A stretch of DNA of 64,000 bases, taken from positions 7,483,389 through 7,547,388 of the forward strand of contig OZ037772.1 of the NCBI GenBank assembly GCA_964035545.1, in the 5' to 3' direction. A model generated the notes under the pieces. The model ran no database searches, had not been told where the DNA came from, and saw nothing but the letters and a program-made list of their open reading frames with translations. A program made the position numbers and the translations under genes. Positions within the stretch are counted from its first letter, which is position 1. Every line of letters begins with the position of its first letter. Positions 27,405 to 64,000 of the stretch are shown one piece after another. The stretch comes from Bugula neritina. Its lineage: Eukaryota; Bryozoa; Gymnolaemata; Cheilostomatida; Bugulidae.

Positions 27405-30400
27405 ATGAAGAAAATCAAAATGGATTACAATGCAAAAACTCTACACAAGGCTGAAAGCAGAGAAGAAGCTAAACTGCTGCTTGAATCAGTGCCACCAGAA
27501 AAAAGGAGAGACTTATTACTATCTGTCGATGACAAGCAATGTACAGCTCTACATGTCCAAACCAGTAATGGTAAAGCAGATGTAGTTGAATATTTATGTC
27601 ATTCATTCAATACCAATAATGAACTCTTGCTAGCAAAAGATTTAAATGGAAAAATAGCTCTACATTATGCAAAAACCAAAAAAATAGCTGAACTACTTGT
27701 AAAAGCAGTCCCTCTGAAAAAACATAGGGATTTTATATTATCTGCTGATACAAATCAGTGTACAGCATTACATGTAGCTGCCGTCAATGGCGAAAGAGAC
27801 GTTGTGGACTATCTCTGTAGTTTACCAATAACAGAGGAACTAGTGTTTGCAAAATGTAACAAAGGCAAGACAGCCCTTCATTATTCTTCTAACCACAAAA
27901 TTGCACAAACACTTGTAGAGTCAATCACACCTGACAAAAAAAGGGATTTTATATTATCAGTTACTAATAATCAGAGCACAGCATTACATTATGCTGCCAT
28001 TGAGGGTAAAACAGATGTAGTAGAATATCTCTGTAGTTTACCGGAGAAAGATGAGCTAGTGTTAGCAAGAAATGACAAAGGCTGGACGGCCCTTCATTAT
28101 TCTCCAAACCACAAAATTGCTCAAACACTTGTAGAGTCAATCACACTCGACAAAAGAAAGGATTTTATATTATCAGTTGCTGATCATCAGCTTACAGCAT
28201 TACATGTAGCTGCTAGCAATGGTAGAACAGATGTAGTAGAGTATCTCTGCGGTTTACCAGAAAAAGATGAGCTAGTGTTAGCAAAAAGCATTGAAGGCTG
28301 GACAGCCCTTCATTATTCTTCAAACCACAAAATTGCTCAAACACTTGTAGAGTCAATCACACTCGACAAAAGAAGGGATTTTATATTAACAGTTTCTGTT
28401 AATCAGCTTACAGCATTACATGTAGCTGCTAGCAGTGGTAGAACAGATGTTGTAGAATATCTCTGCGGTTTACCAGAAAATGATGAGCTGGTGTTAGCAA
28501 GAGATGACAAAGGCAAGACAGCCCTTCATTATTCTTTCAACCACAAAATTGCTCAAACACTTATAGAGTCAGTCACCCCTGAGAAAAAAAAGGATTTTAT
28601 ATTATCAGTTTCTGTTAATCAGCTTACAGCATTACATGTAGCTGCCAACAACCGTAAAATAGACGTTGTGGAATATCTGTGTAGTTTACCAATAACAGAG
28701 GAACTGGTTTTTGCAAGAACTAACGAAGGCTGGACAGCCCTTCATTATTCTTCCAACCACGAAATTGCTCAAACACTTATAGAGTCAATCACACTTGACA
28801 AAAGAAGGGATTTTACATTATCAGTTACTGATGATCAGTTCACAGCATTACATGTAGCTGCTGGCAATGGTAGAACAGATGTAGTAGAATATCTCTGCGG
28901 TTTACCAGAAAATGATGAGCTGGTGTTAGCAAGAGATGACATAGGCTGGACAGCCCTTCATTGTTCTTCAAACCACAAAATTGCTCAAACACTTGTACAG
29001 TCAGTCGCAGCTGACAAAAGAAGGGATTTTATATTATCAGTTACTGATGATCAGCTCACAGCATTACATGTAGCTGCTGGCAATGGTAGAACAGATGTAG
29101 TAGAATATCTTTGTAGTTTACCAGAAAAAGATGAGCTAGTGTTAGCAAAAAACATTGAAGGCTGCACAGCCCTTCATTATTCTTCAAACCACAAAATTGC
29201 TCAAACACTTGTAGAGTCAGCCACAGCTGACAAAAAAAAGGATTTTATATTAACAGTTACTGAGAATCAGTGCACAGCATTACATTATGCTGCTGACAAA
29301 AGCAAAACAGATGTAGTAGAATATCTCTGTAGTTTACCAGAGAAAGATGAGCTGGTGTTAGCAAAGAGTAACAAAGGCAGGACAGCCCTTCATTATTCTT
29401 CAAATCAGAAAATTGCTCAAACACTTGTAGAGTCAATCACACTCGACAAAAGAAAGGATCTTATATTATCAGTTAGTGATTATCAGCTCACAGCATTACA
29501 TGTAGCTGCCATCGATGGTAAAATAGACGTTGTGGAATATCTCTGTAGTTTACCAGAAAAAGATGAGCTAGTGTTAGCAAAAAATAGCAAAGGCTGCACT
29601 GCCCTTCATTGTTCGTCAAATAAGAAGATTGCTCACAAACTTGTAGAGTCAGTCACACTTGATGACAAAAGAAGGGATTTTATATTATCAGTTACTGAGA
29701 ATCAGTTCACAGCATTACATGTAGCTGCTGACAAAGGCAAAACAGATGTAGTAGAATATCTCTGTAGTTTACCAGAGAAAGATGAGCTGGTGTTAGCAAG
29801 AGATGACATAGGCAGGACAGCCCTTCATCTTTCTTCAAACCACAAAACTGCTCAAACACTTATTGAGTCAATCACATTTGACAAAAGAAGGGATTTTATA
29901 TTATCAGTTACTGATGATCAGTGTACAGCATTACATATAGCTGCTAGCAATGGTAGAACAGATGTTGTGGATTATCTCTGTAGTTTACCAGAAAAAGATG
30001 AGCTGATGTTAGCAAGAAATGACAAAGGCAGGACAGCCCTTCATTATTCTTCAAATCAGAAAATAGCCCAATTGCTTGTAGAGTCCTTAAAAACAGAAAA
30101 ACAGAGATACTTTGTATACATGGTAAACAATTATAAATCTACTGCTTTGCATGTAGCTGCTGAGGAGGGTAAAGTTGATGTAGTAGAATATCTCTGTAGT
30201 CTATATCCAAACAACAATGAACTGATACTAAAAAAAGATGCTGATGGTAATACTGCATTGCATGTTTCTAAAAATCGAGAAATCGCTAGAATACTTTTAG
30301 AATCTGTCACAAAAGTTCAGCAAGCTCGCTTTCTTTTGACTAGTAATAGATATCAGCAGACAGCATTACATGAAGCCGCACGCTCACGTAGAAATGACGT

Positions 30401-33400
30401 AGTAGAATATCTTTGTGAGTTATGCCCAACTGATGAGTTATTTCTCAATAAAGACAGCTCTGGCAAAACTGCTTTATGCTACATTGAAGACAGGAATACA
30501 GCTGAACTGCTAATTAGATCAGCAACAGAAGATGGAAGGGCTAAACTGCTATCAGCTGTTGACAGAAATGAACAAACATTGTTGCACCAGGCTGCTAAAT
30601 TCGGTAGAACTAATGTAATTGAGTATATTTATAGCTTATTAGGTAATGTGGAGCTGTTCTTGAAGAAAGACATTTTTGGCAGAACAGCACTACACTATTC
30701 TAAAAATAAACATGTAGCCAAAGCTCTGTTAGAAAAAGTCCCTTCAAAACATCAAAAAGAGTTTATTTTATCAGTTGACAATAGTGGGCGGACAGCACTG
30801 CATGCAGCAGCAGTCACTGATAAAGCTTTTGAAGTACTCGAATACTTTTGCGAATTACACATAGCAGACGACAAAATGCTAATACAAAAAGACAGAAATG
30901 GCGAAACTGTTTTACACTACGCGGCCAACAAACAAATTGCCAAGTTGCTCATAGATTCAGTTTCACCAGAGAGAAAAGCGGAATTTCTATTCTCTATGAA
31001 TGCTGATCAAGGCACAGTGTTGCATAAGGCTGCTTCATCTTTCCGAACTGATGTTGTCATGTTCCTTTGCAGTTTACCATTACTTGACAATGAATTTATA
31101 TTTCTGGCAAACAAATTTGGTCATACCGCTTTGCATTATACTAAAAATAAAGAATCAGCGAAAGCGATTGTGGATTCGGTTACACCACCAGCAAGACAGA
31201 GAGACCTACTTCTTTTACAAGATAAAAACAAATCTACAGTATTGCATCACGCAGCTACAGACTGGTATGAACAAGATCTAGTGGAATATTTTTGCAGCAT
31301 ATCATTGGCAAAAGACGAGCTGATATGTGCTCAAAATTCTAATGGCCAAACGGCATTGCATTTTGTGTATGACTCACAGATGGTCAAATCTATTGTTTTT
31401 CATCTACACCCTGAAAAGTTACCGTTACTGCTAATGAGTGAAGATAACACAGGAAACACACCTATTCTCTCATTAGCATTCTCAGGAAATGTTAATGCTT
31501 TGAAAGTTCTTCTTAAGCATATTGATGATCAGTGTGAGCCAGAAATAATGTCACTATGCTTACAAAAACACAACAAACTGAAACAGAACATTTTACACCT
31601 TGCAGCTTTGTCACCATATCTTGACCAGCTCTATGATGTTTTGATAGAATATTTATACTGTGTAGATATAAGCAGCATGATGTATCCTGATGTTTATGGT
31701 AATACCCCATTGCACTATATTGCTGCCAAGTATAGCACCAAAATATTTGCTGACTTTATGTTGCACCTTCCTTTGACATTGAGAAAGAATGTCCTGACTT
31801 GTCCAAACAAGCAGAAAACTACATGTCACTCAATCATTGCTAGATCTCGTTTTGATACTAGATACTATGTTGATAAGGTTCTAGGAGGTGATGCAGCAAG
31901 TTTAGCAGAAACAGGCAATGCTACATCTTTATTCGGCATATTTGCAGCTATATCAAAACGCCTCGTTTGCCCTGTCCCATACGCATATAATGAGGATATT
32001 TTCAAAGTATTGCAGCATACTCTAAATCAATACCTACTGCCATGCATCTCTGTAAATGATGAAACAGCTAAACTGTTACCTGCAGCTGCTACTGCAAGAA
32101 TTAAACCAGAAAGATGCCTTCAAAAACAAGGAAAAGTAAGTTATCTGAAACATTTTCAACAATTTTCTCACCAATTATTTTTTGACCGTCACTGATTAAA
32201 CTTATAGTTTGCATAGTTACCATACAGTTTTAAAAACAACTTCAACAGCTGCTGTTGATATCAAACGACAATCGTGTAGATAGTTATGTGAAACTATGTT
32301 ATACAAACTCCAGCTTATATTTTTAGCATCTGTTCAACCTACAACATATGTTTTTTTCAGTAAACATTTTTCAAAAGCTTCTTGAAAAACTAAACTCGCA
32401 CTAAATATTGTCCAATTGTGTTTACATCTCTTTATTTAAGTGCTGAGAGTATATAATTTCTTCAAATAGACTTTTCTAATCAAGGATTTTTGCTATAGTT
32501 GGTAAAATACAATTTTGAACAGTTGTGCTAATTAAAATTGTTTGAAAATTACTTTTCAACCTGATTTTGTGATATGTTAAGTTATCAAAAACAATTGTGA
32601 TATAGAAAAACTGTAGGATGTCAAAAACTAGCCAGTTTTAATTATATTGCTGAAAAGTTTTAAACTTCTTACATTAGACTTTGAAATTGTGTTCTATATT
32701 TATCATCACCATCATGAAACATTCATTAAAACTATAAATTATACTGGACTCTGATAGAAATCAAGTGATGCACAAGACTACTCGTTGATAGTGGTAAGCT
32801 CAACTGATGTGGAAGGGCCAAAACAAGATGTGGTACAGCATAGACTCAGTGACATGGATTACTCTGAATACCATGGCAAACCTAAGGTATCATGTCTATT
32901 TGTCCAACCAAAGGATATATAAATGTATCTTTCAATTTCAATGTATTTGTATTGGTTATCTTACCCAGTATGCAGTTAACACTATAACTTACAAGTTTGC
33001 TTTGATGCAAATTGGAATTACATGGTAAATTTTGTAATGTAAAGAGCTAAAGATTGGGTGATTTTTGTTTTTTATACATAGATAGCAGTTATACAAAGTT
33101 CTGCAATGGAACCAAATCTGAACTTGATACCACCAGGTCCTGATTATCTGATACTCTCAGTGAAATATAACACAGCTGAATACACAAGGTAATGCTATAA
33201 ACTATTAATTAACCCATAAAGTGATTGACTGGATGTGTTTTAACTTTAGTTTACATGTTTTTTTATACAACAAACTTTCAAGAACTTTTTTGCTCAGGAA
33301 TCCGGTACAAGATGTCGAAAAACACAACTCTATTCAATCATTTATTTCTGAGCTCAGCTGTTGTCCTGATGTACAGAAAGTGAATGTAAACTCAACTCTG

Positions 33401-35231
33401 AACAAGATATACATCAGAGGAAAAAATAAGTGTCTTGCAGATGGTTGTAAAGTGGGTTATAAACCAATTGATGATCCAATGCAAGCTGAATCTAATGAGA
33501 AAAAGTCCAAAGCATTGATAATTTGCAATCAATTTAAAATCAGAGATGGAATGACTCCAGAAAACCTACAAACAACAAAGTCTCGCAAGACTACCTTAAA
33601 AATGGCCCAGACAGTATTTGAAGATTATTGGGACTTTGAGGTAATGACCTTCTAATGACATATGTTATTTATCATAATCAAAGCATGCATAATTGAAAAT
33701 ATGTTAATCTAAATTGTACTTATTAGTAATAATCCAAATACGAATGCTGATCAAAATTTCAACTTTCCATAATTCTCAGATAATGCTATAACTATGGAGC
33801 TCAAACAAGTTAACACATAACTATCTTTGTACATAAAGGCTAATTGTGGTATATGAGTGCAAGTTACAATTATTAAATCAGTTACCAGATAATGTTGTTA
33901 GTGAACCATATTATTCTTTAAACTTCTTTAAATTAGGTAGAAGTCAAGTATGATCTCTCTGCAGAAGAAATACTCAGTTCTATATCTGAGTTCTCCAGAT
34001 CAGAAGGACATGGTTCAATGGCTGCTTTGACTATCCTCTCCCATGGATATCAAAGAAACATAATGGGAGCTGATAACCAATCAGTGTGTTCTGTACAGGA
34101 AGTAGTCGACTCATTCAACACAGGAAATGTTGAGAATATAAAAAAGGTTTGAGAAAACTCATTTTAATTACACAGCAGTTGCGTATATTGGCGTCAAATA
34201 TTGATTATATTTCCATCATGCCGTCAAAAATAAATTTCTCAATGAAATAATATTTTTCTGATACACTTTCACTCTTTATATTGTAGTTACTATTTCTGTC
34301 TTACTGCCGAGGAGGTATTCCCACTCAGTTTAATCGTGCTCAACACAGCTTTGAGTCTGGTTCTGGTTTTCCATGGCCAGAGCGAGGGCCTTCAGAGCCA
34401 AATTATCAACCACTCAAAAAGTTTCTAGATGAGTCGTTTAGAAAGCAGGAATGGTACAGTCTACCAACTTTCCCACCATTGGAAGTTCCTGTAGACTGTT
34501 ACATTATGTTCTCCACTCTACCAGACAGCAAGTATGTAGCATCAGAACTGATTTTCAGTATTGAATTGATCTAAATTTGCGTCAAAAGAAATTCAAATTG
34601 CTTCGGCCCTGCACATAATATGCTATAGCAAATTTTCAGCAAAGTGCCTTACTTTACTTTTCGTAACCCATAAACAGCTCACAAGACTGTTTATAGATGT
34701 CTTCAAACAAAATCACAGCTATAGATTCAATTGTTTTGATTAGAAAAGGTACTCTTTTCTTCCCATAAAAAACCCAGTATTTGAAAATAAATAAACTTTT
34801 ACAATAGTTTTTCATGTGAATCAAAATATATTGTTGTGGGCATAGTAATTAATAATTAGTTAAACTGGGTACCCGATGTTTCATAGTCCCACTGCCTGTA
34901 ACATATTCCATCGTGATTTTACAGGTCAAAGCCAGGACTGATGTTCAAGTGTTTGTCAGAACATCTGAGAGATCTGACCAGTGATTACAGAAGTAAACTA
35001 TTGACACCTGCTACCAGCTCTTCTGATGACATCACAGAACAAGCAGACAGAAAACCGTCAAAAGAAAAGCCAGTAATGAGAGTAAACCTACTTGATTTAC
35101 TCACAGATGTAGCTGGAATAATGAGAGATACGTCCAGATCTACACAATATGCTAACTTATGTTATACTGTTGATAGAAACAGTCAACAGATCTTTATTGA
35201 CATCTTTAAGCCCAGCTCTGAGTCAAAATAA
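27405..35231 (+). CDS. Ankyrin-array caspase-like protease, copy 1 (2023 aa)
   Basis: Seven exons join in frame: 27405-32135, 32758-32886, 33082-33188, 33298-33640, 33937-34146, 34287-34531 and 34925-35231 (6072 nt). All introns have GT/AG ends. The first exon alone encodes about 39 ankyrin repeats (TALHVAA / TALHYSS type, residues about 45-1460) in a 72-aa two-repeat module. Residues 1578 to about 1700 resemble the C-terminal half of a caspase (GKPKIAVIQSS, then IPPGPDYLILSV) but lack both catalytic residues. Residues about 1720-2020 form a caspase-like domain: SKALIICNQF, ALTILSHG (His1806), FLSYCRG (Cys1847, for the usual QACRG), and a p10-like part ending QIFIDIF. ATG 27405 is the first in frame; ATG 27420 aligns better with copy 2 and is an alternative. 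No signal peptide or membrane segment is seen, so it is probably cytosolic. The role is inferred: the ankyrin array as a sensor or scaffold coupled to a protease. Confidence 0.88.
27500..31800 (+). repeat. Ankyrin repeat array of copy 1, about 39 repeats, 216-bp module
   Basis: The repeated GCCCTTCATTATTC motif recurs at 216-bp spacing from about 27871 to 30035 (one interval is 219 because of an extra codon). Each module pairs a canonical ankyrin repeat (TALHVAASNGRTDVVEYLC) with a shorter one (TALHYSSNHKIAQTLVES). Modules in 27860-30060 are highly similar at DNA level; the later ones (30100-31800) are diverged and match the equivalent C-terminal repeats of copy 2 more closely. Confidence 0.9.
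32758..33450 (+). other. Degenerate caspase fragment in copy 1
   Basis: Three small exons encode DYSLIVVSST, GKPKIAVIQSS, IPPGPDYLILSV and a helical section like the start of p10 (FISELSCCPDV, VNSTLNKIY). The order matches caspase beta-3, beta-4 (GKPKxFFIQAC), the p20/p10 junction (IPxEADFLxAYST) and the first p10 helices. The His position reads Ser1592 and the Cys position Ser1627. This is comparison by eye with well-known caspase motifs. Confidence 0.6.
33480..35228 (+). other. Caspase-like catalytic domain of copy 1 (p20 plus p10)
   Basis: Exons from 33298 onward encode the second caspase unit. It shows KALIICNQF with a following RDG, SxxEFSRSEGHGSMAALTILSHG (catalytic His), GADNQ, LLFLSYCRG (catalytic Cys), a linker of about 50 residues, VDCYIMFSTLPDS, then the p10 helix GLMFKCLSEHL and a final IFIDIF strand. 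The tryptophan-arginine that normally lines the S1 pocket after the AYST strand is not seen. Confidence 0.75.
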
Positions 35232-37426: not shown

Positions 37427-37427
37427 G

Positions 37428-39563: not shown

Positions 39564-39602
<39 letters not shown>

Positions 39603-45325: not shown

Positions 45326-48300
45326 ATGGCAGAGAGAACACTACACAACGTTTCTAACCAAGAAGAAGCTCGGCTTCTGGTAGAGTCAGTGAAACTAGAG
45401 GAAAGAAAAGATTATATACTCTCTGTTGATGAGAACATGCAAACAGCTCTGCATTTTTTGGCTTACAACGATAGAGTTGATGTAGTAAACTATCTCTGTG
45501 AACTATTTCCAAAATTTGACAAACTGCTACTAGCTAAGGATACAAGCGAGAGAACAGCTTTGCATTATGCTAAAACTAAATTGATAGCAGAAATACTAGT
45601 AGAGTCCGTTTCACCTGAGAAGCAAAAGGAATTCATCTTTTCTGCTGATACCAATTATTGTACAGCATTACACGTTGCTGCTGACAATGATAGAACAGAT
45701 GTGGTAGAGTATCTTTGTAGTTTACCAGTAAAAGATGAACTGCTGTTTGCAAGAGATAATAGAGGCTGGACAGCCCTTCATTATTCCTCTAATCAGAAAA
45801 TATCACAGTCGCTTGTACAATCCGTTGCATCTGAAAAACAGAAAATATTTCTGTTGTCAGTTAGTATGCTAAAGTCTACATCGTTACACATGGCAGCTTG
45901 CAAGGGTAGAACAGATGTAGTAGAATATCTCTGTAGTTTACCAGTGAAAGAGGAGTTGGTATTAGCAAAAAGTGACACAGGCCGCACAGCCCTTCATTAT
46001 TCTCCAAATCAGAAAATTGCTCAACTACTACTAGAGTCAATTTCACTTGACAAAAGAAGAGATTTTATATTATCAGTTGCTGATAGTCAACTCACAGCAT
46101 TACATGTAGCTGCTAGCAACGGTAGAACAGAAGTGGTGGAATATTTTTGTAGTTTACCAGCAGAAGATGAACTCCTGTTAGCAATAGATCAGGATGGCTG
46201 CACAGCCCTTCATTATTCCTCAAATCAGAAAATAGCCCAACTGCTTGTAGAGTCGCTGAAATCGGAAAAACAGAGATACTTTGTATATATGGTAAACAAT
46301 AATAAATCTACTGCTCTGCATGTAGCTGCTACCGAGGGTAAGGCTGATGTAGTAGAGTATCTCTGTAGTTTATATCCAAACAATGATGAGTGGATACTAA
46401 AGAAAGATAATAATGGTAATACTGCATTGCATGTTTCTGCAAATAGAGAAATTGTAAAAACACTTTTGGGATCTGTCAAAAAAGAGCTGAAATCAAGTCT
46501 GTTTTTGGCTAGAAACAACTTCCAACAAACAGCACTGCACACCGCTTCAATTTCCAACAAAACTGATGTACTAGAATGTCTTTGTAAATTTGAAAATATT
46601 GGTGAGTTACTTCTCATAAAAGATTGGACTAGCAGAACTGCCTTATACTACATTTACAGCAGATATGCAGCTGAAATTTTGGTTAATTCAGCAACAGAAG
46701 ACGTAAGGTCTAAGTTATTATCAGCTGTTGACAGAGATGGACAAACAGTATTGCACAGAGCTGCTAAATTCAGTCGAACTGATGTAATAGAATATTTCTG
46801 CAGTTTATTTAGTGACGATGAGGTGATGCTCAAAAAAGACATGTTTGGTAAAACAGCTTTACACTATGCAAAGAATAAGCAAGTTGCTAAAAATCTTCTC
46901 ACATGTGTCACTTCAATAAACCAGAAAGACTTTATATTGTCTTCTGACAAATTAGGATCAACAGCATTGCATACAGCTGTAGCCACTAGTCAAACCTCTG
47001 ATCTGGTGAAATACTTTTGTCAATTAAGCTTGGCTGATGATCAATTGTTTCTGCATAAAGACATACACGGAAAATCAGTTTTGCATTGTGCTATTAATAG
47101 CAACGTTGCAAAAATGCTCATAGAGTCAGTTGCACCGAAGAAGCAAAAGAGCTTCCTTTTTTCTCTTGATATAAATCAGCGCACAGCATTGCACTATGCT
47201 GCTATATGGTTTCGAACAGATGTTGTCAAGTTCTTCTGCAGTTTACCCTTGGTTGATGATGAATTTATATTTTTTAAAGACAAAATTGGGCAAACAGCTT
47301 TACATTATGCTCAAAACAAAGAGTCAGCAGAAGCTATTGTAGAATCAGTTACATCATCAAGACAGAGATATCTTCTCTTTTCACAAAATGGAAACAAATG
47401 GACAGCATTGCATTCTGCAGCCTTAAATCCATTTGGAGCAGATGTAACAGAGTATCTTTGCAAAATATCAGTAGGAAATTATGAGCTGATATCCGCTCAA
47501 AATTCGTATGGTCAAACAGCATTGCATATTGCTTGGAGCGCAAATGCAGTGAGATCCATTCTCTTTTCTCTACAAACTGAACAGTTACCTTTTCTGCTCA
47601 TGAGTGAGGATAATGCAGGAAACACACCTCTTCTTTCATTAACACTTTTAGGAAATTATAATCCCTTAGAACAAATCCTGGAGCATATTGAAGATCAGTG
47701 TGGATCAGAAGTAATGCCATCATGCTTACAGAAACAAAACAAACTCAAACAAAACATTTTACATCTTGCAGCTTTGTCGCCACGCCTTGACAAAATATAT
47801 GATGTTTTGATGAAATATTTACACAATGAGGATATAGTGAGCATGATGTATCCTGATGTACGTGGTAACACACCAATTCATTATGTTGCTGCCAAATACA
47901 ACATCAGAGTGTTTGCTGACTTTATGCTACACCTTACTTTGCCAATGAGACATTTTGTGGTAAATCATTCAAATAAGCTGCAAACAACATGCTTGTCAAT
48001 AATTGCTAGATCATCTTTTGATACAAAATATTATGTTGACAACATTCTTGGGCCACCTACAAGCAAAACAGCATTATCAGCTCCTGAGATAGCACCATTG
48101 GTTTTTGCTTCATCAATTTCTAGCATTTTGTACAGAATGTTTCCATATTCATACAATCAAAATGTGTTCAAAGTATTAAGCCATGCTCTTAATCAATACC
48201 CAATATCAGACAGTTGTTTGATTACATCGCTTGATCTGAACAATGAAACAGGAAAAAGTTTGCTGGAAAAAGAAAAAGTATGTGATTTCCTTTGGTTTTT

Positions 48301-51300
48301 CTTTCAGTTTCATTTAATACCACCATGACTAAATTGTTTTGTGAAAACAACTCTCACGTTTTGTTTTATTCCTATCTTCAAACTAAACTGGAATGCTTGA
48401 AATTTTACGTGATGTATTCAAAATTTTAAAGTTGAAAGTTGAGCAAAACACTATTACTTTACATTGCCTTTTTTATTTATAAATGTTAGAGATCTAAAAT
48501 AATTATACTGTATTTGTATTAGGAATCGAATAAAGGTCAGGACTACTTGTTAATGATCGTTAACACAGTTGATGCTGAAGGGCCAATACAAGATACTGTG
48601 CAGAACAAACTCAATGGTATGGACACCCTTGAGTATCATGGCAAACCAAAGGTATAACCACTTTGTTATATGTGACTGCAAAAAGATAATACATTTTTGT
48701 TGTTTAATTTGATAGTATAAAACTGAAATGTACAACTGACTGATCGAATTTATGTTAAGTTGTCATTGTGATCAAATTAAAAGTTGCAAAACTCCTTTTT
48801 AAGGATCTGCACCGTATTTTTATAAATAGTTCACCATAGTAAACTGACTGGTCAAAAACTTAAGAGTGTGCAGTGAAAAAACGCTAAACTTCAGAGCAAA
48901 CTGACTTTTAGTTAACTTCACTTTCAACTTTAAGTTTACAATAAAAACATTTTTATTTCCATCAAAATACTTTATTACTCATCATCACCACAGAATAAAT
49001 GTTCATTGAAGTATAACACCATTTTTGTATTATAATTATTTACATATATTAGTGGTTTTATGGATGAATGAGTCCTAAATCTGAGTTAGGCCCACTATAC
49101 ATTTCAGCTACAATGCAATTGCTTTGCTGCAAACATTGTATTTGTATTTGAAGGATGCATATTGTTGTAAATTGCAAAGGTGCTGTTGAAGCTAAATTCT
49201 AGAAGATTTTGTTCAGCTGGCACTGTTTCATTTATAGATAGCAGTGATACAGAGTTCTGTACCAGAACCAGATCTGAATCTAATACCACCAGATCCTGAC
49301 TACCTGATCCTCACTGTGAAGTATCATACAGACAGTTATGAGAGGTAAGTTTATAAATATAACATTCCGATTTTTTTGTTTTGAGTATACATTTATATTA
49401 TTTATACAAAGTAGTTTATATTATGTGATTTCTTTGTATGTATCTTTCACAAACACCTAACAGAAATCCAGCAATAGACATGTCAAAATACAAAGAGACT
49501 AGCCATCTGATTACCGAGCTGAGCTGCGGTCCTGATGTACAGAGAGTGAGTGTAAACTCAACTCTGAACAAGAGATACACCAGAGATGATGAGGAGAGAG
49601 AAACAGATGATGACGAAGACAATTATGACTCAATAGAAAATGGAAAGAAAGTTGAGCTTAAAGAAAAAAAGTCTAAAGTACTAATTATTTGCAATCAATT
49701 TGAAATCAAATATGGAATGAATCAGCAAAACTTACAGACAACCAAGTTTCGAAGAAACACATTAAAGAAAGCACACGCAGTATTCAAAGAATTTTGGAAT
49801 TTCGAGGTAATTACTTTTTAATGATATTATTAATGTATGGTGTAATATTTGTAGATTATTCACGTTACATTAGCATCATGTGAATACTTTTGCTAATTTA
49901 TGTACATACATTAAAACTTAAACTCTCAAATTCAATATTTTACGGCTTAAATGTATTATTTTAGTGCATAGAGTGGTTACTTTTGACCTAAATATAGAGT
50001 CAAGTTACAACTTTTATTTGTCAATGGTAAATATTATAGATCCTGCGAGTGATTTTGTTTAATCATGTACCTAATTAACACACAAACTATCTGGTAAAAA
50101 GATGTTTCTGAACAAACTAACTTGGTTTTATCAGGTAGAAGTCAAGTATGATCTCTCTGCAGAAGAAATGCTAAGTTCTATATCTGAGTTCTCCAGATCA
50201 GAAGGACATGGTTCAATGGCTGCTTTGACTATCCTATCTCATGGATATCAGAGAAACATAATGGGAGCTGATAACCAATCACTGTGTTCTGTACAGGAAG
50301 TAGTTGATTCATTCAACACAGGAAATGTTCAGAATATAAAAAAGGTTTATACATTGTGGTATTACCTAAACAGTGAATTGTGGCATCAAAGCATTTTAAA
50401 CGCATGAGTTGCTTTATTTTTGGTATCTAATAATGAATTTTGTTTAAGACTAAATCACAATTTATATTAGACTTATAATTTTTGTTTTTAAACTTGTCTA
50501 AGTAATATCCAAATGTTTATGTTACACTTTTATTGCTTATATTGTAGCTATTATTTCTGTCTTACTGCCGCGGAAGTATTCTCCCTCAGTACAACAGAAC
50601 TCCACACAGCTTTGAATCAAGTTCTGATTTCCCATGGCCAGAAAATGAGGTGTCAGTAATGTATCAACCTGTAAGGAAGGGTTTTAATGAGACTTTAAGA
50701 AGGCAGGAATGGAGCAGACAACCAACATTCCAACCATTAGATGTTCCTGTAGATTGCTATATTTTGTTTTCTACTTTACCAGACAGCAAGTATGTATAAT
50801 TTGAACTGGGCACGAGTATCAACTAATCATATTGAATTTCAATATTTTAGTTATACCGTAGAGCTTCTAGACATGTAACTAGAGCAATGCTTCAGCAAAG
50901 CTATTCAATTCACCATTCTGAACCTAAAATTTCAAGTGACTTCAAACAAAGTGCTCAACATAACATTGAGTGCACGGTGTCTTTCATTTAGGTTTCTTAA
51001 AATTCACAAAAAAAACGTCAATTTAAGTAAATAAAATATCGCAGATCATTGCCCATATAGTATTCCTATAGTAGGCTTTATAGCAAAGGTTACATAAATT
51101 CTCAGTAACATTTCTGTAATGCACTCTGCACAAATCTTCCATGCAGGTCGAAGCCAGGACTGATGTTCAAATGTCTGTCAGAACATCTGAGAGATCTGAC
51201 CAGTGATTACAGAAGTAAACTATTGACACCTGCTACCAGCTCTTCTGATGACATCACAAAACAAACAGACAGACAGATGTTAACAGATGATTCTGTGTTA

Positions 51301-51483
51301 TCAGACGAAAGAAAAGACAAGCCGGTAATGAGAGTAAACCTACTTGACTTACTCACAGATGTAGCTGGAATAATGAGAGATACGTCCAGATCTACACAAT
51401 ATGCTAACTTATGTTATACTGTTGATAGAAACAGTCAACAGATTTTTATTGACATATTTAAGCCCAACTCTGAGTCTGAATAG
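45326..51483 (+). CDS. Ankyrin-array caspase-like protease, copy 2 (1439 aa)
   Basis: Seven exons join in frame: 45326-48277, 48523-48651, 49238-49344, 49464-49806, 50135-50344, 50548-50789 and 51147-51483 (4320 nt). Exon number, phases and four of seven exon lengths (129, 107, 343, 210) equal those of copy 1. The first exon encodes about 23 ankyrin repeats against 39 in copy 1. Residues 985 to about 1105 are the degenerate caspase fragment: the His site reads Thr999 and the Cys site Ser1034 (IQSS). The second caspase unit keeps LSHG (His1213) and SYCRG (Cys1254). Between the two units lies an Asp/Glu-rich stretch (DDEERETDDDED) that is absent from copy 1. The Arg that follows KALIICNQF in copy 1 (RDGM) is KYGM here. 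ATG 45326 is clear: it is shared with copy 3 and lies 27 bases after a probable UTR splice acceptor. Likely cytosolic; function inferred as for copy 1. Confidence 0.9.
45430..47960 (+). repeat. Ankyrin repeat array of copy 2, about 23 repeats
   Basis: Alternating TALHVAA-type and TALHYSS-type repeats in the 72-aa module. The N-terminal two and C-terminal dozen repeats have one-to-one partners in copy 1; the central array is eight modules shorter. Confidence 0.88.
48523..49600 (+). other. Degenerate caspase fragment in copy 2
   Basis: DYLLMIVNTV, GKPKIAVIQSS, IPPDPDYLILTV, LITELSCGPDV and VNSTLNKRY correspond position by position to the fragment in copy 1. Both catalytic positions are replaced, so the same loss is fixed in both paralogues. 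Confidence 0.6.
49670..51480 (+). other. Caspase-like catalytic domain of copy 2
   Basis: SKVLIICNQF, ALTILSHG, FLSYCRG, VDCYILFSTLPDS, GLMFKCLSEHL and QIFIDIF appear in caspase order. Relative to copy 1, the exon at 51147 has a 30-nt insertion in the variable section after the SSDDIT motif. Confidence 0.75.
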
Positions 51484-54864: not shown

Positions 54865-55236
54865 CTTATTCAGATTAAAGATTTTCATTTTAATGCTGCA
54901 TGAATCTTTTGAATTACAATTGCAGCATTGAATGTAATTGTATATATCCAGGTTTCAACTTTACATCAATTAGCTTCACATCAATAGATATATTTTTGCA
55001 GCTGAAAAATGACATTGCAGGTCCCATTTAATCTTGGCTGATATTTTATTCAGTATATGCCCATTGAATAATAAAGCCAATTTTTTTAAAAAGTTTTTGG
55101 GCTGTTCAAATTGAAAAATTCATCAAAACAAGTGTCTCAACTATTGAATTATATTTGAAACTATGCAAATATTGAACTGGTATATTACAATAAGAAAGCA
55201 GAGTATGTAGACACATCCAACATGTTTTAATAAATA

Positions 55237-55325
55237 TGGCATGGATCTAAAATTATCATGGAGATCAAACTATGGACCTTGTGTTTACTAAGTGTGTGCT
55301 CTAACCACTATGCCATGGATGCTTC
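55237..55325 (-). tRNA. tRNA-like segment, minus strand (pseudo-tRNA)
   Basis: On the minus strand the sequence reads CATGGCATAGTGGTTAGAGC (A-box region) and, after an anticodon-like interval, AGGTCCATAGTTTGATCTCC (B-box region). The stems are imperfect. It is more likely the head of a SINE than a working tRNA. Confidence 0.4.
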
Positions 55326-55794
55326 CAACATTCAACATTCAAAATACCCTACTTTTTATTTGTACAATGCCTCCCTTACATGTAATCTCATATAGGTAGC
55401 ATGATATATCACTTGTCTAGATTTATACTGAACTATTTACATCCCATGAAGTACCCACATTGATAATACACAGAGTCCAGGATCCTTGGTAGGTGTATGT
55501 CTTGTGCTGCCACAGCTTGTTATTTTATCATATAAGGACATTTACAGCTCATACCTGTTGAGTAGGTAAATTAGGGTGGTTTATATACATGTATGTAAAT
55601 ATTGTTATAAATAAGGGAATGAGCACTAGTTTGTGATCAATGTGGTAGGTAAGTAGGCATAGTAGAAAAAGTGAAGGAACAGTGTCTGCTCCATAAACAA
55701 CCGATATATTGAATTTGATCTTAGGTAGGTCAGAATATGGGTTTTGCTGTAATAATATGCTGTGTGTGTGTTGCAACAATGCACTGCAGCATAA

Positions 55795-55821
55795 TGTATA
55801 TATATATATATATATATATAT
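55795..55821. repeat. (TA)n microsatellite
   Basis: A short pure TA run near the left edge of the second intergenic duplicated block. Confidence 0.85.
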
Positions 55822-56149
55822 GATATTTTAAGGTGATGGTATTTGTATACAGTTAATAACTCTCATGTTTACCTTCCATTCATTTCTAGCCAGTGCTTTG
55901 TTGTGGCTCATTTATTACTGTGGGTGTTGTGATTATTTCAAACATTTAAATCAAGTTTCTATTGTGTGAGACAAGTAGCCCAGCAACAGAATTTATACAG
56001 CTATTGGTATCAATACGTTTTATATTATTACACATGCTTAAGTAAACAGAAGAATGTATATATTATATAACTACTGGATTCAATCAGACCTTTGAGCTAG
56101 TTTATTGTTCTGCAAAAGCAGAGCATGTAGACCGGTAAACATACAAAAA

Positions 56150-57251
56150 ACACATTGCTAGGTCCCACCTTGTTCCTAATATATATCAACGATCTTTGCG
56201 AAACCTTAAAATATGTAACACCAATTTTATATGCGGACGATACTAACTTATTTCTAAAATCAAAAAATTTAAACAATGAATATGATAAAATCTCTTCTGA
56301 TCTTAAAAGACTGTGTGAATGGTGCCAGATAAATAAGCTAACAATTAATTATGAAAAAACATCTTACATTATTTTTAAGAATTATCAAAATAAGTTCCAA
56401 TTTAATTTAAAATTAACAATAAACGACAAACCAATAACAGCAGTTGACGAAGTAAAATTTTTAGGTGTGATAATTGATAGAAATTTAAACTGGTCATCCC
56501 ACATTCAGAAAATATTATTAAATCTTCGACCGATTTCGGGACTTTTTTATCGTTTAAATGCATTCGCTCCTAAAAAAATTTTGATCATGTTATACTATTC
56601 ACTTATACATTCCAGGCTGTGCTACTCTATAGAATCCTGGGGAAATGCATCCAGGGTCCATCTTGATAAAGTGATAAAATTTCAAAAGAAAATTGTCCGA
56701 ATAATTCACCGCAAGCCTTTTGGATACCATTCTAAAGACCTGTTTAGGAAATCAGACATTTTACCAGTTGACAAGTTGTACAAGTACAAACTGCTGATTA
56801 AAGCTCATAAAATCTTCTATTCAGAAAGCTTTTTGACACACTCTCACTATACTACTCGTCATCAGTTGCAATCTCTTCCTGTTCCATTTTATTCCTCATT
56901 TGCTGGTCAACGCACCTCAAATTTTGTAATATCTGCACTGTGGAATAAGTTGCCTAAATCTTTAAAGATTACACAGCCACTTGGTAAATTTAAAGTGGAA
57001 TTGAGGCATCACCTCCACTCTATTGAGTGATCTGTGGTGCCTTGTATGGTAATGCCAACATTGGGCCCGCGTACCACTAGCCATGCTATTTCGCACTGGG
57101 CCTCATCATCATTTCCGACAGCTTATTTTGATATACTGTTATTTGTTACTATGTTTCTTTTCTAATTGCTTGTTCTGCTCTTGTAAATTATCCTAGTTGT
57201 AAAACACTATGTTATGATGAAAATAAAACACACACACACACACACACACAA
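56150..57251 (+). mobile_element. 5'-truncated non-LTR retrotransposon with (AC)n tail
   Basis: An open frame of about 290 codons (56155-57030) starts without an ATG and encodes the C-terminal half of a reverse transcriptase: GPTLFLIYINDL, then the catalytic ILYADDTNLF box, FLGVIIDRNLNW, SRLCYSIESWGNA and a C-terminal ALWNKLPKSL. A roughly 200-base 3' UTR follows and ends in GAAAATAAAACACACAC with an (AC)n tail. The layout suits a LINE of the Jockey/CR1/RTE type truncated during insertion. The frame is intact in this piece, suggesting a fairly young copy. It splits an intergenic duplicated block. Confidence 0.85.
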
Positions 57252-58388
57252 TATACTTGTTAAATATTATTTTGAGTATAAGCTGAAAGAATAAATGAAT
57301 ATACATTAGTTACCTATAGTCACTTTACACTTCATAATATATTACTAATGCAGTGCAAACAATCATCAACAAATCCAGTGGTGCTGCTCATTTTTTTCAT
57401 TTTCTAGAATGTTATTAAAACAGAATGTTCAGTATTAGTGTGAAGACTGCCATGCATGGTTGAAAAGTAGAGGATATCTCCATATATATAGCCTATAGTT
57501 AAATTTTTGTTATGTTACTAATACAGTGTAAAGAATTATCAACAAATCTAATAACAATGTTATTTTTTTGCATTTTACAGAGAGCTATTTAAACAGAATA
57601 TTCAGTGTTAGTGTGAAGACGGTCATGTATGTATGAAAGGTAGAGGACATCTTCATATGCATATAGCTAAATCTGCACTTTATGTGGTAAGTATAGGAGT
57701 GTATTGTTTGTCTATGTTTGTGTATAAATGTATACAGCATATAAATTAGTTATATAATATATGTATAAACTGCTTTAAGTTACTGTAGACTGTAAACTGT
57801 CTAGTCTGACTGTCAACTCACTTAAAGTTATGTATTTATTAAATAATAATCACAGCTCTTCTTACTAGATTCCACCCTTATTTGAGGGAACTATTTTTTC
57901 ACTTCCTAATTAGTTCATATGCATCCCTTCATCTTCTATCTACTAGTTCCCAAGATAAATATGATGGAATCTAATAGACACACATAGTTTACATACACAA
58001 ACAAACAGAAACGTCCAACCTTACAAGATTTTTACATTCAATGCCATGGGTGACATGTCCAATGCTTCATAAACACACTAATAATAACTCCTTTCAGAGA
58101 GCTACTACTTGTAACACACATTATACTAAACTTTTATACAATTATCAAATATCATTAGAAAATATATTGCTGGTACACCTGTCACCTGCTTGTGATCTTT
58201 ATTGCTGCGCTTCTGTGTCTTCCAGTTTGTAGCAACCAGTAAACAACTCAAATACTATATACATGTGTTGAGTTGTAGCGTAGCCATATACTCATGCAAG
58301 ACAATTTTTAATGAAATATCACATTTATATTCTATCAACAAAAATATCTTTAGTTGTTAAAACTTCCTTAGTTTTGAGTTTACCCACT

Positions 58389-58460
58389 GTTCCCTGTAGT
58401 GTAATGGCAGTGTACCTGCTTGAAAGTTGGAGTTCTTTGGTTTAAATCTCAGTGAGGGGC
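58389..58460 (+). tRNA. tRNA-like segment (pseudo-tRNA), second copy
   Basis: CCCTGTAGTGTAATGGCAGT with GTACCTGCTTGAAAGTTGG and TTTAAATCTCAGTGAGGGG corresponds to the segment at 54216-54292. It leads directly into a (TA)n tract, a common SINE-type tail. Not expected to be functional. Confidence 0.35.
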
Positions 58461-58465
58461 AAAAG

Positions 58466-58467
<2 letters not shown>

Positions 58468-58534
<67 letters not shown>
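58468..58534. repeat. (TA)n microsatellite
   Basis: A pure TA tract of about 66 bases, with a second short run at 58629-58654. Confidence 0.95.
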
Positions 58535-58537
<3 letters not shown>

Positions 58538-59377
58538 CAATCTGTGGACAGCAGCTGTTTCGGGGTTTGTTTCCTCATCAGCGCAGAACAGAGTACCATG
58601 ACCCACACCTTTGCAATAGTAGAAACTATATATATATATATATATACATATATATTCAGATTTCAACTTTTTATCGACAAACCTTCCATGCGTAGGTATA
58701 TTTTGCAGCTGAAAAGTGACATTGTAGCTTTTATTTAATTTTGGCCACTATTTTATTCTGTATATGTGCATTGAATAACAAAAGAATTTGTTTAACTAAT
58801 GGAATCAATAAATTTTATTTTATTCCACAGGCATAAGTAAACAGAGGAGTTTATTTACCTACTGAACTCAATGCGTATATAGTTTTGGGTTGCTGTAAAC
58901 TGTATAGTCCGGCTGTCAACTTAAATTAAAGTTAAGTATTCAGTAAAAATCAATCCTATACTTCTCACTAGATTTCATCTAGTCTTGGATTTGAACCTCA
59001 GTGGAGGCAAAAATTATATATATCTAGTTTAAACTTATCACTTTTTATTCTAACCATAGTTCTAATTCGATTGCTAAAAGTTATTGGCAGTGCTTATAGC
59101 CACATGTAAATAATTTTGTTGTGCAATGCAAAATGGAAAATGAAAAGTAAAAACACCGATGTTAAACAAATTCTAATGTATCACTGCTATAGTGTGTAGA
59201 AAGTGAACAAAGATGCCCTGGGAAAAGCATTTTAGTTTTAGTAACTCAGAGTAAATCTCTTCATTTCAATGCCGGATCTTTCAAATTACAATTGAAGTAT
59301 TGAATGTACATGTATATATTCAGGTTTCAACTTCAGATCAATGAGCTTCAGATACATGTATAGGTATATTTTTGCAG

Positions 59378-59382
<5 letters not shown>

Positions 59383-59431
<49 letters not shown>
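59383..59431. repeat. (TA)n microsatellite at duplication edge
   Basis: A TA tract that, like 43919-44051, lies immediately left of the TTCTGGCAAAACTGTG start of the duplicated upstream block. Confidence 0.92.
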
Positions 59432-59435
<4 letters not shown>

Positions 59436-60707
59436 TGGCAAAACTGTGTGTTTATTAAAAGCTAGCTTGGCATGAATAGTTGAAAACAAAATTTTTTACT
59501 ACCCAGTATTTTGACATAAACTAACAAAAAGCATAAAATAAACCTTCTCACTTTATCACTTTTTCAAGATTATGGAATGTGCATGTTTGCTAGTATCATA
59601 TACTTTTTTTGTTTTTTTTGTTTGTTTTTATTTTGTCATAGTCGAAAAAAAATTAATTGAGAAAAAAATAAACAAAATGACAGGGCCTATGGTGCAATAG
59701 CGCTGTAGCTAGTCGAGGCACCGAGCCATGAATGGTTGACAGTTATATAAAATTTTTGTTTAGGTTTTTGGAAGTTTTAGCAACTTAAAAGGTATTATTT
59801 TCTTATCTGGAAACTTGCCATTAGATGGTCTCTCAGGGCAAGTTTGAAACCAGCCTCCCTCCCCACAGCACGAATAGAACTAGGCAATTTATTCCATAGC
59901 GACGAACATTGGAATTCTACTCTTCGTGACCTGCAGCAGTTGATGATGGAGGAGTTTGTAGGCTGAACTCTGAAAAACTTGTAGGATAGTTATGTGTGAG
60001 ATGTTTTAGTTGAGAATAGTAAAGTTTATGTGAGAGCAGTATTAGTTTGAATTTGTGTAGAGTGTGAATAGGCATGATTGAAGAACTAAGAAACAGTGGT
60101 TTAGATCGGGAAAGGTGATGCTTTTTATATATAATTCTCAGTATTTTCTTTTGCAGTAAATGTAGTGGTTCAAGATAAATGTTTGCTGCATTACCCCACG
60201 ATTCTAGGCAATATGTTAATTTAGAATTTACAAAAGAGTTTTATATTTGTATTATCAAAATCATATGAGTTTTCAAGTTGAAACAATAATTTGTGGAACC
60301 ACATTACATCTGGAATAGACAAACTTTGACATTATAGCGCAGGGCACTTGTTTATTACTTCTTTCAAGAAATATGCACCATGCATTCAATCTAGTGTTAT
60401 ATTTTTTTCAAACTTTACGAGTTTTAAATTCATAAAGCAAAATGTTAAACTGCACTACATATATTGAGAAACAGAATTTTGCATAAAGATGGAAATTTGT
60501 TATGAAAAATGCATTTCCTAATAATATGCATACATGTAGTAACCTACACCTGTTTTTGTTGCAAATTGCTAGTATCATACTATAATTTTTATTTTTAATA
60601 CCTATACAAGCAAGATAATCTATCAACTTAAAAATAATTGTTCTCAAGTCTTTCAAATACCACAGCAGTTACTTTTACAGGGAAATGTGGAAGTAATAAG
60701 GTAGGAA
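59432..60707 (+). repeat. Segmental duplicate B: upstream region of copy 3
   Basis: Near-identical to 44052-45325, including the non-LTR remnant on the minus strand (59650-60265) and the TTACTTTTACAG acceptor before the ATG. Confidence 0.92.
59650..60265 (-). mobile_element. 3' fragment of non-LTR retrotransposon (duplicate copy)
   Basis: The same insertion as 44290-44900, carried along in the segmental duplication, since flanks and truncation point agree. It is therefore not an independent insertion. Confidence 0.75.
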
Positions 60708-63700
60708 ATGGCAGAGAGAACACTACACAACGTCTCTAACCAAAAAGAAGCTCGGCTTCTGGTAGAGTCAGTGAAACTAGAGGAAAAAAGAGATTATATA
60801 CTCTATGTTGATGAGAACATGCAAACAGCTCTGCATTTTCTGGCTTACAACGATAGAGTTGATGTAGTAAACTATCTCTGTGAACTATTTCCAAAATTTG
60901 ACAAACTGCTACTAGCTAAGGATGCAAGCGAGAGAACAGCTTTGCATTATGCTAAAACAAAATTGATGGCAGAAATACTAGTAGAGTCCGTTTCACCTGA
61001 GAAGCAAAAGGAATTCATCTTTTCTGCTGATAACAATTATTGTACAGCATTACACATCGCTGCTGACAATGGTAGAACAGATGTGGTAGAGTATCTCTGT
61101 AGTTTACCAGTAAAAGATGAACTGCTGTTTGCAAGAGATAATAGAGGCTGGACAGCCCTTCATTATTCCTCAAATCAGAAAATAGCCCAATTGCTTGTAG
61201 AGTCACTGAAATCGGAAAAACAGAGATACTTTATATACATGGTAAACAATAATAAATCTACTGCTTTGCATGCAGCTGCTTACAAGGGTAGAGCTGATGT
61301 AGTAGAATATTTCTGTAGCTTACCAGAAAAAGATAAACTGCTGATAGCAAAAAATAGCGCAGGCTGGACAGCCCTTCATCTTTCTTCAAACCACAAGATT
61401 GCTCAAACACTTGTAGAGTCAGTCACACTTGACAAAAGAATGGATTTTGTATTATCAGTTGCTGATTATCAGCTTACAGCATTACATGTAGCTGCTAGCA
61501 ATGGTAGAACAGATGTAGTAGAGTATCTCTCTAGTTTACCAGAGAAAGATGAGTTAGTATTAGCAAAAGATATCAAAGGCTGGACAGCCCTTCATTATTC
61601 TTCAAATCAAAATATTGCTCAATCACTTGTAGAGACAGTCACACGTGAGAGTTGGAGAAATTTTATATTGTCAGTTACCAATGATCAGCAGACTGTATTG
61701 CATGTAGCTGCTTACAATGGTAGAACAGATGTAGTAGAATATCTCTGTAGTTTACCAGTAAAAGAAGATCTGCTGTTTGCAGAAAATGACAAAGGCTGGA
61801 CAGCCCTTCACTTTTCATCTAATCGGAAGATTGCACAATTACTTGTAGAGTCAGTCACATCTGATAGACAGAAAGAGTTTACATTATCAGTTACCAAGGA
61901 TAAGGTTACAGCACTATATGCAGCGGCTTACAATGGTATAACAGATGTGGTAGGATATCTCTGTAGTTTACCAGTGAAAGATGATCTGCTGTTTGCAGAA
62001 GATGACCAAGGCTGGACAGCCCTTCACGCTTCATCTAATCAGAGGGTTGCACAATTACTTGTAGAGTCAGTCACATCTGAAAGACAAAAAGAGTTTATAT
62101 TATTCGGTAGCAAAGATAAGCTCACAGCATTACATGCAGCGGCTTACAAGGGTAAAACAGACGTGGTAGGATATCTCTGTAGTCTACCACTGAAAGATGA
62201 TCTGCTGTTAGCAAGAGATGACACAGGTTGGACAGCCCTTCATTATTCGTCAAACCACAAAATTGCTCAAACAATTGCAGAGTCACTCACATCTGACAAA
62301 AAAAGGGATTTTATATTATCAGTTACTGATGATCAGCTCACAGCATTACATGTAGCTGCTGGCAATGATAGAACAGATGTAGTGGAATATCTCTGTAGTT
62401 TACCAGTAAAAGATGATCTGCTGTTTGCAGAAGATGACCAAGGCTGGACAGCCCTTCATTTTTCATCTAATCAGAAGATCGCCCAATTACTTGTAGAGTC
62501 AGTCTCACCTGAAAAACAGAAGAAATTTTTGCTATCACTTACTGAGAAAAGAGTTACAGTATTACATGTAGCTGCTAGCAAGGGTAGAACAGATGTAGTG
62601 GAATATCTCTGTAGTTTACCAGTGAAAGATGAATTGCTGTTTGCAAAAAATGACAAAGGCTGGACAGCCCTTCATTTTTCATCTAATCAGAAGATCGCCC
62701 AATTACTTGTAGAGTCAGTCTCACCTGAAAAACAGAAGAGATTTTTGCTATCACTTACTGAGAAAAGAGTTACAGTATTACATGTAGCTGCTAGCAAGGG
62801 TAGAACAGATGTAGTGGAATATCTCTGTAGTTTACCAGTAAAAGATGAACTGTTGCTAGCAAGAGATAACAAAGGTTGGACAGCCCTTCATTATTCGTCA
62901 AATCAAAAGATCGCTCAATTACTTGTAGAGTCAGTCTCACCTGAAAAACAGAAGAGATTTTTGCTATCACTTACTGAGAAAAGAGTTACAGTGTTACATG
63001 AAGCTGCTAGCAAGGGTAGAACAGATGTAGTGGAATATCTCTGTAGTTTACCAGAGAAAGATGATCTGCTGTTTGCAGAAGATGACCAAGGCTGCACAGC
63101 CCTTCATTTTTCATCTAATCAGAAGATCGCCCAATTACTTGTAGAGTCAGTCTCACCTGAAAAACAGAAGAGATTTTTGCTATCACTTACTGAGAAAAGA
63201 GTTACAGTATTACATGTAGCTGCTAGCAAGGGTAGAACAGATGTAGTGGAATATCTCTGTAGTTTACCTGTAAAAGATGAACTGTTGCTAGCAAGAGATA
63301 AAGAAGGCTGGACAGCTCTTCATCGTTCGTCAAATGAGAAGATTTCACAGTCACTTGTAGAGTCACTTAAGCCTGACAGACAGAGATACTTTGTCTACAT
63401 GATTACCATTTACATAGAAACTGCTTTGCATTTAGCTGCTTCCAATGGAAAAGCTGATGTAGTGAAGTATCTCTGTAAGCTATATCCAGATGAGTTGCCA
63501 CTAAAGAAGGATCTATTTGGCAATACTGCATTGCATCTTTCTGAAAATGTAGAAAGTGCAAAAGCAATTTTGCACTCTGTAACACATGCGCAACAGAAGC
63601 ACCTGCTTAGTGTTGTTAACACTTTTGATCGCACAGCACTACATGAAGCTGTCGCTGTAAGAAAGACAGAAGTAGTGAAATATATTTGCAGTTTATATTC

Positions 63701-64000
63701 AAATATTGGAAAAGTTATTTGCACACAGGATAAATATGGTAGCACCATTTTGCACTCTGTTTGTGACAAAAGTACAGCTGAACTGCTCATAGGATTTGTA
63801 AGCTTAGAAAATAGAGAAAAAGTTTTATTTACTGTCGACAACCATGGCCAAACGCTATTACATAGAGCTTCCAAATATGGTAGAACTGGTGTGATGGAAT
63901 TCTTTTGCAGCATCAATACAACTGGTGATAGACTCATACTGGCAAAAGATAACGATGGTAGCACTGTTTTACATTATGCTGCTAATAAAGAAATCGCCAA
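60708..64000 (+). CDS. Ankyrin-array protein, copy 3 (partial; caspase part beyond window)
   Basis: The ATG at 60708 opens a frame with no stop to the window end (1097 codons plus two bases, ending in an ankyrin repeat). The first 28 or so codons (MAERTLHNVSNQ...) nearly repeat copy 2. I count at least 30 ankyrin repeats, again alternating TALHVAA and TALHFSS/TALHYSS types in a 72-aa module. Late repeats (from about 63410) become diverged, as they do near the end of the array in copies 1 and 2, so the array is probably approaching its C-terminal part. The upstream 1.3 kb is duplicated from copy 2. By analogy the next exons should encode the degenerate and catalytic caspase units, but none is visible here, so this is a prediction only. 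Confidence 0.85.
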   Translation, partial: MAERTLHNVSNQKEARLLVESVKLEEKRDYILYVDENMQTALHFLAYNDRVDVVNYLCELFPKFDKLLLAKDASERTALHYAKTKLMAEILVESVSPEKQKEFIFSADNNYCTALHIAADNGRTDVVEYLCSLPVKDELLFARDNRGWTALHYSSNQKIAQLLVESLKSEKQRYFIYMVNNNKSTALHAAAYKGRADVVEYFCSLPEKDKLLIAKNSAGWTALHLSSNHKIAQTLVESVTLDKRMDFVLSVADYQLTALHVAASNGRTDVVEYLSSLPEKDELVLAKDIKGWTALHYSSNQNIAQSLVETVTRESWRNFILSVTNDQQTVLHVAAYNGRTDVVEYLCSLPVKEDLLFAENDKGWTALHFSSNRKIAQLLVESVTSDRQKEFTLSVTKDKVTALYAAAYNGITDVVGYLCSLPVKDDLLFAEDDQGWTALHASSNQRVAQLLVESVTSERQKEFILFGSKDKLTALHAAAYKGKTDVVGYLCSLPLKDDLLLARDDTGWTALHYSSNHKIAQTIAESLTSDKKRDFILSVTDDQLTALHVAAGNDRTDVVEYLCSLPVKDDLLFAEDDQGWTALHFSSNQKIAQLLVESVSPEKQKKFLLSLTEKRVTVLHVAASKGRTDVVEYLCSLPVKDELLFAKNDKGWTALHFSSNQKIAQLLVESVSPEKQKRFLLSLTEKRVTVLHVAASKGRTDVVEYLCSLPVKDELLLARDNKGWTALHYSSNQKIAQLLVESVSPEKQKRFLLSLTEKRVTVLHEAASKGRTDVVEYLCSLPEKDDLLFAEDDQGCTALHFSSNQKIAQLLVESVSPEKQKRFLLSLTEKRVTVLHVAASKGRTDVVEYLCSLPVKDELLLARDKEGWTALHRSSNEKISQSLVESLKPDRQRYFVYMITIYIETALHLAASNGKADVVKYLCKLYPDELPLKKDLFGNTALHLSENVESAKAILHSVTHAQQKHLLSVVNTFDRTALHEAVAVRKTEVVKYICSLYSNIGKVICTQDKYGSTILHSVCDKSTAELLIGFVSLENREKVLFTVDNHGQTLLHRASKYGRTGVMEFFCSINTTGDRLILAKDNDGSTVLHYAANKEIA
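62500..63370 (+). repeat. Four near-identical 216-bp ankyrin modules in copy 3
   Basis: GAAAAACAGAAGAGATTTTT recurs at about 62512 (one mismatch), 62728, 62944 and 63160, exactly 216 bp apart, with the following TGCTATCACTTACTGAGAAA and CTAGCAAGGGTAGAACAG also repeated. The units differ at few positions. Confidence 0.92.

Follow-up and report, generated by a model that had tools for sequence, protein, structure and literature searches.

Direct fusion of a protease to a repeat domain has been described in fungi, where the sensors that control gasdermins carry a serine or caspase-like CHAT protease joined to ANK, TPR or WD40 repeats and, according to the sections of that work used here, are often clustered with a gasdermin gene (PMC12881547). 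Receptors of the NLR and apoptosome type couple a repeat sensor to a caspase that is recruited. This study concerns 64,000 nucleotides of the bryozoan Bugula neritina (GenBank assembly GCA_964035545.1, contig OZ037772.1, positions 7,483,389 to 7,547,388 of the forward strand; hereafter the window), which hold two complete genes and part of a third from a family in which a giant ankyrin array appears, from the splice structure, to be joined to a caspase-type (Peptidase_C14) protease. Caspases carry out programmed cell death, and such a fusion would unite a sensor-like portion with an enzyme of this kind in a single protein.

This family resembles the fungal sensors, as far as that partial account goes, in the direct fusion of protease and repeats, but differs from them in protease family and kingdom and in not being clustered with a gasdermin gene. 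With the NLR and apoptosome-type receptors it shares the principle of coupling a repeat sensor to a caspase, whereas the caspase is fused here and recruited there. It is like the initiator and effector caspases of animals (MEROPS C14A) in its Peptidase_C14 domain, in the order of His and Cys, in the p20-p10 layout and in predicted fold, and differs in that the ankyrin array replaces CARD or DED, an extra module stands ahead of p20, the S1 Gln is replaced, the SWRN loop is shortened and the linker between Cys and p10 is long and conserved. An animal C14 version of the fusion already described in fungi for other proteases, or any animal ankyrin-caspase family, was not found in the literature searched, preprints and most subscription journals lying outside its scope; the single paper listed for that pairing of domains concerns human isoforms.

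Gene structure and extent of the family

Within the window, genes A (27405-35231) and B (45326-51483) share one layout, a one-exon ankyrin array followed by six small exons with the caspase domain last. All introns of these seven-exon genes are GT-AG, their exon phase patterns are identical, and the joined exons yield 2023 amino acids in A and 1439 in B, each in a frame that stays open to the terminal stop. A sequence-only reading of this DNA had proposed two complete genes and one partial gene on the same strand, with splice sites of consistent phase in two paralogues, and both proposals hold: gene C runs out of the window, and the two junctions between array and caspase part are exact, in phase 0 and free of internal stops. 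In A, the last base of exon 1 is 32135, followed by GTAAGT, and exon 2 opens at 32758 behind an AG; in B, the corresponding positions are 48277, before GTATGT, and 48523, again behind an AG.

The family is larger than the genes of the window and constitutes a set of about twenty loci, probably specific to this lineage. The protease part of B, used as a query, gave 81 exon matches in the genome that group into 20 clusters (C1, four; C2, two; C3, one; C4, two; C6, one; C8, nine; C9, one), and each of the 20 is preceded, on its own strand and 1.2-6.2 kb upstream, by a matching ankyrin exon. This pairing used all 81 caspase rows and, of the 131 ankyrin rows, 56 chosen to represent each cluster; some clusters are thin, with one to three caspase exon matches. 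Ankyrin clusters number 25, five of them with no family caspase downstream. With 25 such clusters in 216 Mb, a pairing of 20 out of 20 is by our estimate far from chance. For the caspase part, splicing was examined in six loci (A, B, D, E, J and Q), and F, G and T were followed by exon matches.

Named relatives in three protein searches came from B. neritina only, although the second and third searches scored only those candidates that shared most words, so that relatives elsewhere could be missed. The remaining matches were unnamed metagenome proteins, nearly all of them ankyrin exons by Pfam label; one, P0017, is an exon-4 type fragment. The B. neritina model P0002 covers the end of the array, the linker exons and, except for its exon-4 part, the protease as far as the final caspase exon, and is 83-96% identical to locus T in six pieces. 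In P0003, P0004, P0005 and P0010 an apparent array tail, recognised by alignment, is joined to linker or protease exons; P0005 stops before the protease, and P0001 begins within the linker.

These models bear on the explanation that an ankyrin gene and a separate caspase gene lie side by side and were duplicated together. In its favour, the ankyrin frame of A and D continues for about 20 codons beyond the donor to a stop. However, the donors of A, B and D are consensus sites with matching phase 0, A and B share no conserved read-through sequence past the donor, and five of the six B. neritina models join an aligned array tail to linker or caspase exons, so we regard the two-gene arrangement as very improbable. 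The fusion of array and caspase is well supported by the genomic splice structure, the family and the gene models, rather than by transcripts.

The array of A (exon 1, 27405-32135, plus strand as are all features of the three genes) encodes 1577 amino acids, and that of B (45326-48277) 984; the partial array of C (60708-64000) encodes at least 1097. A last caspase exon at C8:7552423-7552758 (window coordinate 69035), 5.0 kb beyond the window end, is presumed to be that of gene C; the window is followed by 5000 bases of N, and the middle of the gene lies outside the sequence read. Beyond the window, C is succeeded by a fourth gene, D, whose array exon encodes 2433 amino acids and whose C-terminal part has 455. 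Pfam was run on the array exons of all three window genes, that of C being incomplete, and on the C-terminal parts of the two complete ones. The arrays of A, B and C matched Ank_2 with E-values of 3.4e-153, 1.5e-82 and 5.6e-130, respectively, and contain scattered unrelated matches besides; the regions scanned gave no match to CARD, DED, NACHT or NB-ARC. TALH-type motifs number 34-36 in A, 19-25 in B, 28-29 in the partial C and 54-60 in D, depending on the pattern, against which the 23 to 39 repeats first proposed are a fair range. A 216-bp unit (72 amino acids, two ankyrin repeats) recurs in tandem, with 11.0 copies in A, about 3 in B and 10.9 in C. At C6:3073734-3080471, on the minus strand, ankyrin matches lie in one open frame of 3025 amino acids upstream of a family caspase, and this array is possibly the longest of all.

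Catalytic residues and the S1 pocket

The six small exons of A begin with the linker module, which starts in exon 2 (32758-32886) and continues through exon 3 (33082-33188) into exon 4 (33298-33640), where it is followed by a spacer and the first strand and helix of p20. Exon 5 (33937-34146) holds the p20 core with the catalytic His (LSHG), exon 6 (34287-34531) the catalytic Cys (SYCRG), a conserved intersubunit linker and the start of p10, and exon 7 (34925-35231) the remaining p10 and the stop. Gene B repeats this order, with linker exons 2 and 3 at 48523-48651 and 49238-49344, the module end and p20 start in exon 4 (49464-49806), the His in exon 5 (50135-50344), the Cys and p10 start in exon 6 (50548-50789) and the remaining p10 and stop in exon 7 (51147-51483). 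Matches to PF00656 score 58.8 bits in A (E 8.5e-16) and 60.3 bits in B (E 3e-16), with a gathering score of 21.4, and LSHG followed by SYCRG, the order read originally from the letters, falls inside this domain in both. Structure predictions, both made on B. neritina proteins, bear out the caspase-like fold claimed for the protease part, with CED-3 and caspase-7 nearest. The 50 matches listed in a structural search with the P0002 model are mostly ankyrin structures and include two caspases; the Foldseek E-values for P0002 are weak, the best being 6.3e-4.

Nine of the 20 clusters (A, B, D, E, F, G, J, Q and T) were read through exons 5 and 6, which carry the catalytic residues. His and Cys are kept in order in all nine and in the five B. 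neritina proteins that have this part, or 14 of 14 sequences. The S1 pocket of caspases consists of Arg179, Gln283 and Arg341 in caspase-1 numbering, as given in the sections of the source used here (PMC11121540). Arg179 appears to be kept, as R33 of alignment A2, in 7 of 7 aligned sequences. The Gln of QACRG (Gln283), in turn, is Ser in all nine loci, and Ser in four and Cys in one of the five B. neritina proteins, and the loop of the second Arg (Arg341, the SWRN loop) is by eye about four residues shorter, with Lys or Arg near the shortened loop in the alignment. Given that the S1 Gln is replaced and this loop is shorter, activity and a preference for Asp are unproven. The family has the Pfam domain, the fold and the catalytic dyad of caspases and departs from them at one point of the S1 pocket; we therefore name it caspase-fold C14 rather than a family of proven Asp-specific caspases.

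These departures speak for a C14 domain that is a pseudoenzyme or has altered specificity, and that would serve other caspases as scaffold or regulator in the manner of cFLIP-L or caspase-12 rather than cut after Asp. There is precedent in caspase-12, which that partial account expects not to function, citing one S1 substitution, Arg341 to Lys, as a reason (PMC11121540). Against such a role stand the dyad kept in every sequence read, the one S1 Arg that is seemingly retained and the strong conservation of exons 5-7, and we consider it somewhat unlikely.

Linker module, paralogue exchange and genomic surroundings

The module between array and protease is conserved, with 30 invariant columns in nine sequences (eight loci of this genome and P0002). 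Compared by eye with the second half of a caspase, it runs from a hydrophobic strand through a helix and GKPK to a strand that closes with Q-S-S at the place of QACRG in caspases, followed by two strands flanking a helix, and it may be a degenerate half caspase, a likeness that is suggestive only. The module has no match in the PDB or to the C14 profile, and a profile comparison with the family's own catalytic part gave P 0.19. In a shuffle test, nine related sequences reached z 0.7-4.8 against three local caspase pieces, GKPK and the hydrophobic strand being shared, and 13 ankyrin pieces used as controls reached at most 1.5 with the same three pieces. Against a fourth caspase, L001, the values of -0.7 to 1.7 do not exceed those of the controls, and the true catalytic parts, used there as positive controls, likewise gave no signal. 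AlphaFold on P0002 predicts a beta-alpha-beta-beta-alpha-beta order with block pLDDT (predicted local distance difference test) values of 69-89, a topology compatible with half a caspase or a ferredoxin-like fold. If the module is a degenerate half, the protein would resemble the heterodimer of cFLIP-L and caspase-8 in placing an inactive caspase part beside an active one, as described in the portion of the source used (PMC11121540), but here within one chain, with half a domain and a putative homology. Traces of a second p10-like linker exon occur at locus G (reverse complement of L025, about 1105-1500), DYVKVSIKYKNEDYK, and at locus T (L028, about 2500-2620), EYFNVSIKYKNENYK, and suggest that the module is duplicated in some paralogues.

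Nonsynonymous divergence (dN) is below synonymous divergence (dS) in every compared exon with finite dS, linker exons included, apart from A-D exon 4 (dS 0) and A-D exon 3 (0.039 versus 0.04), which supports the view that these exons are coded and used; in the array tail dN/dS is 0.4-0.5. Exons 5 and 7 are far closer among paralogues than are most of the exons and introns around them. In comparisons of A, B, D and E, dS is 0.14-0.27 in exon 5 and 0.16-0.18 in exon 7, compared with 0.74-1.67 or saturation in exons 2 and 4 (the A-D pair excepted), 0.57-1.19 in exon 3 for pairs other than A-D, and 0.19-0.75 in exon 6. Identity of the flanking introns is 0.49-0.78, mostly 0.5-0.6, with the exception of an A-D tract upstream of exon 5 (0.99). 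Exon 5 compared with Q and J, on other contigs, has about the divergence of the remaining exons, and a general ban on silent change is accordingly unlikely. The pattern probably reflects exchange largely confined to exons within the C8 cluster.

Across the genome, at least 176 C14 matches were obtained with 150 of 295 candidates scored, many of them clustered on C1 (33-35 Mb), C6 and C7 (7.58-7.71 Mb), beside 4 matches to CARD, 3 to DED and 1 to NACHT; these counts are rough, since domains split by introns can be missed, and they point to a very large caspase repertoire beside few CARD, DED and NACHT matches. The top C14 match among the candidates scored is L001 (C4:5000994-5001812, minus strand; PF00656, E 1.4e-28 over the 300 amino acids scanned), which looks like an inactive caspase relative, given THWAG and DASFG in place of SHG and QACRG.

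In the window itself, a PIH1 domain exon (14829-15470; PF08190, E 3.8e-37) is the upstream neighbour of the family, and a reverse transcriptase fragment (56131-57027; PF00078, E 2.6e-9) lies between genes B and C. A cysteine-rich exon on the minus strand (10678-11082) matches Ephrin_rec_like (E 2.8e-14), and cysteine-rich minus-strand open frames at neighbouring exons (982-8080) suggest one large gene. The stretch 20001-26000 has 45-50% G+C, against 30-43% in the remainder of the window, and includes an open frame that by eye resembles the polymerase of a long terminal repeat (LTR) retrotransposon; 23268-23612 is without a Pfam match.

A proposed repeat-controlled protease and its significance

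Gene structure, the C14 domain with its His and Cys, the 20 loci, the fused B. neritina models and the excess of dS over dN form the basis of the reading we favour, to which we assign a probability of about 0.5: a multigene family particular to this lineage, each member combining ankyrin repeats and caspase in a single chain and using its array to switch on the C14 protease. The long ankyrin solenoid, with its variable repeat number, would bind a ligand or partner; binding, or the clustering of several chains on a target, would bring the C-terminal C14 modules together or free them from restraint, and the modules would then dimerise and switch on with no CARD or DED adaptor. By analogy with the fungal repeat-protease sensors, direct control of the protease by the array is most likely. 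From the architecture we infer a sensor role for the array, activation by proximity, an active enzyme and an output in cell death or immune signalling. The likeness to an innate immune or cell-death receptor drawn at the outset is partly supported: the fusion and the caspase domain hold, and immune function keeps the tentative status it had.

Several points, in addition to the altered S1 pocket, weigh against this reading. The evidence consists of genomic sequence and gene predictions, not of transcripts or protein, and the B. neritina sequences, being predictions as well, may share a bias towards joining neighbouring exons. Pfam ankyrin scores above the cut-off are found only in P0005, which has no caspase part, and weakly in P0002, the models holding the array end alone. 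The p10 part of the predicted structure is of low confidence, and the variable ankyrin positions are also simply the exposed ones. The three gasdermin matches on C2 (2.0 and 4.3 Mb) lie megabases from the family clusters of that contig (8.27 and 31.65 Mb).

Long ankyrin arrays often tether proteins, and bryozoans regularly undergo a programmed degeneration of their polypides. Both would fit a housekeeping or developmental role in which the array anchors the protease to cytoskeleton, membrane or a complex, for instance in polypide breakdown, rather than sensing microbes. Twenty loci with variable array length, however, are suggestive of recognition genes more than of a fixed housekeeping part, and such a role seems to us quite unlikely. 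A bolder extension of the array-switched protease, which we hold to be unlikely, is a receptor-protease in one chain that combines the ankyrin solenoid with a degenerate half of a caspase and an active C14 domain, the altered S1 pocket directing cleavage after a residue other than Asp. The inactive half would then be a built-in cFLIP-like partner, freed or aligned once the array binds its target.

If that extension were true, a one-chain receptor-protease would replace the adaptor-based assembly of inflammasome or apoptosome in a lineage where matches to CARD, DED and NACHT are few. Confirmation of the family would mean that, in one animal lineage, repeats of the recognition type became fused directly with a caspase domain and that the resulting gene multiplied to about twenty loci. 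Control of a caspase by its own ankyrin array, independent of death-fold adaptors, would then become testable, as would a shift of caspase P1 specificity inside animals.
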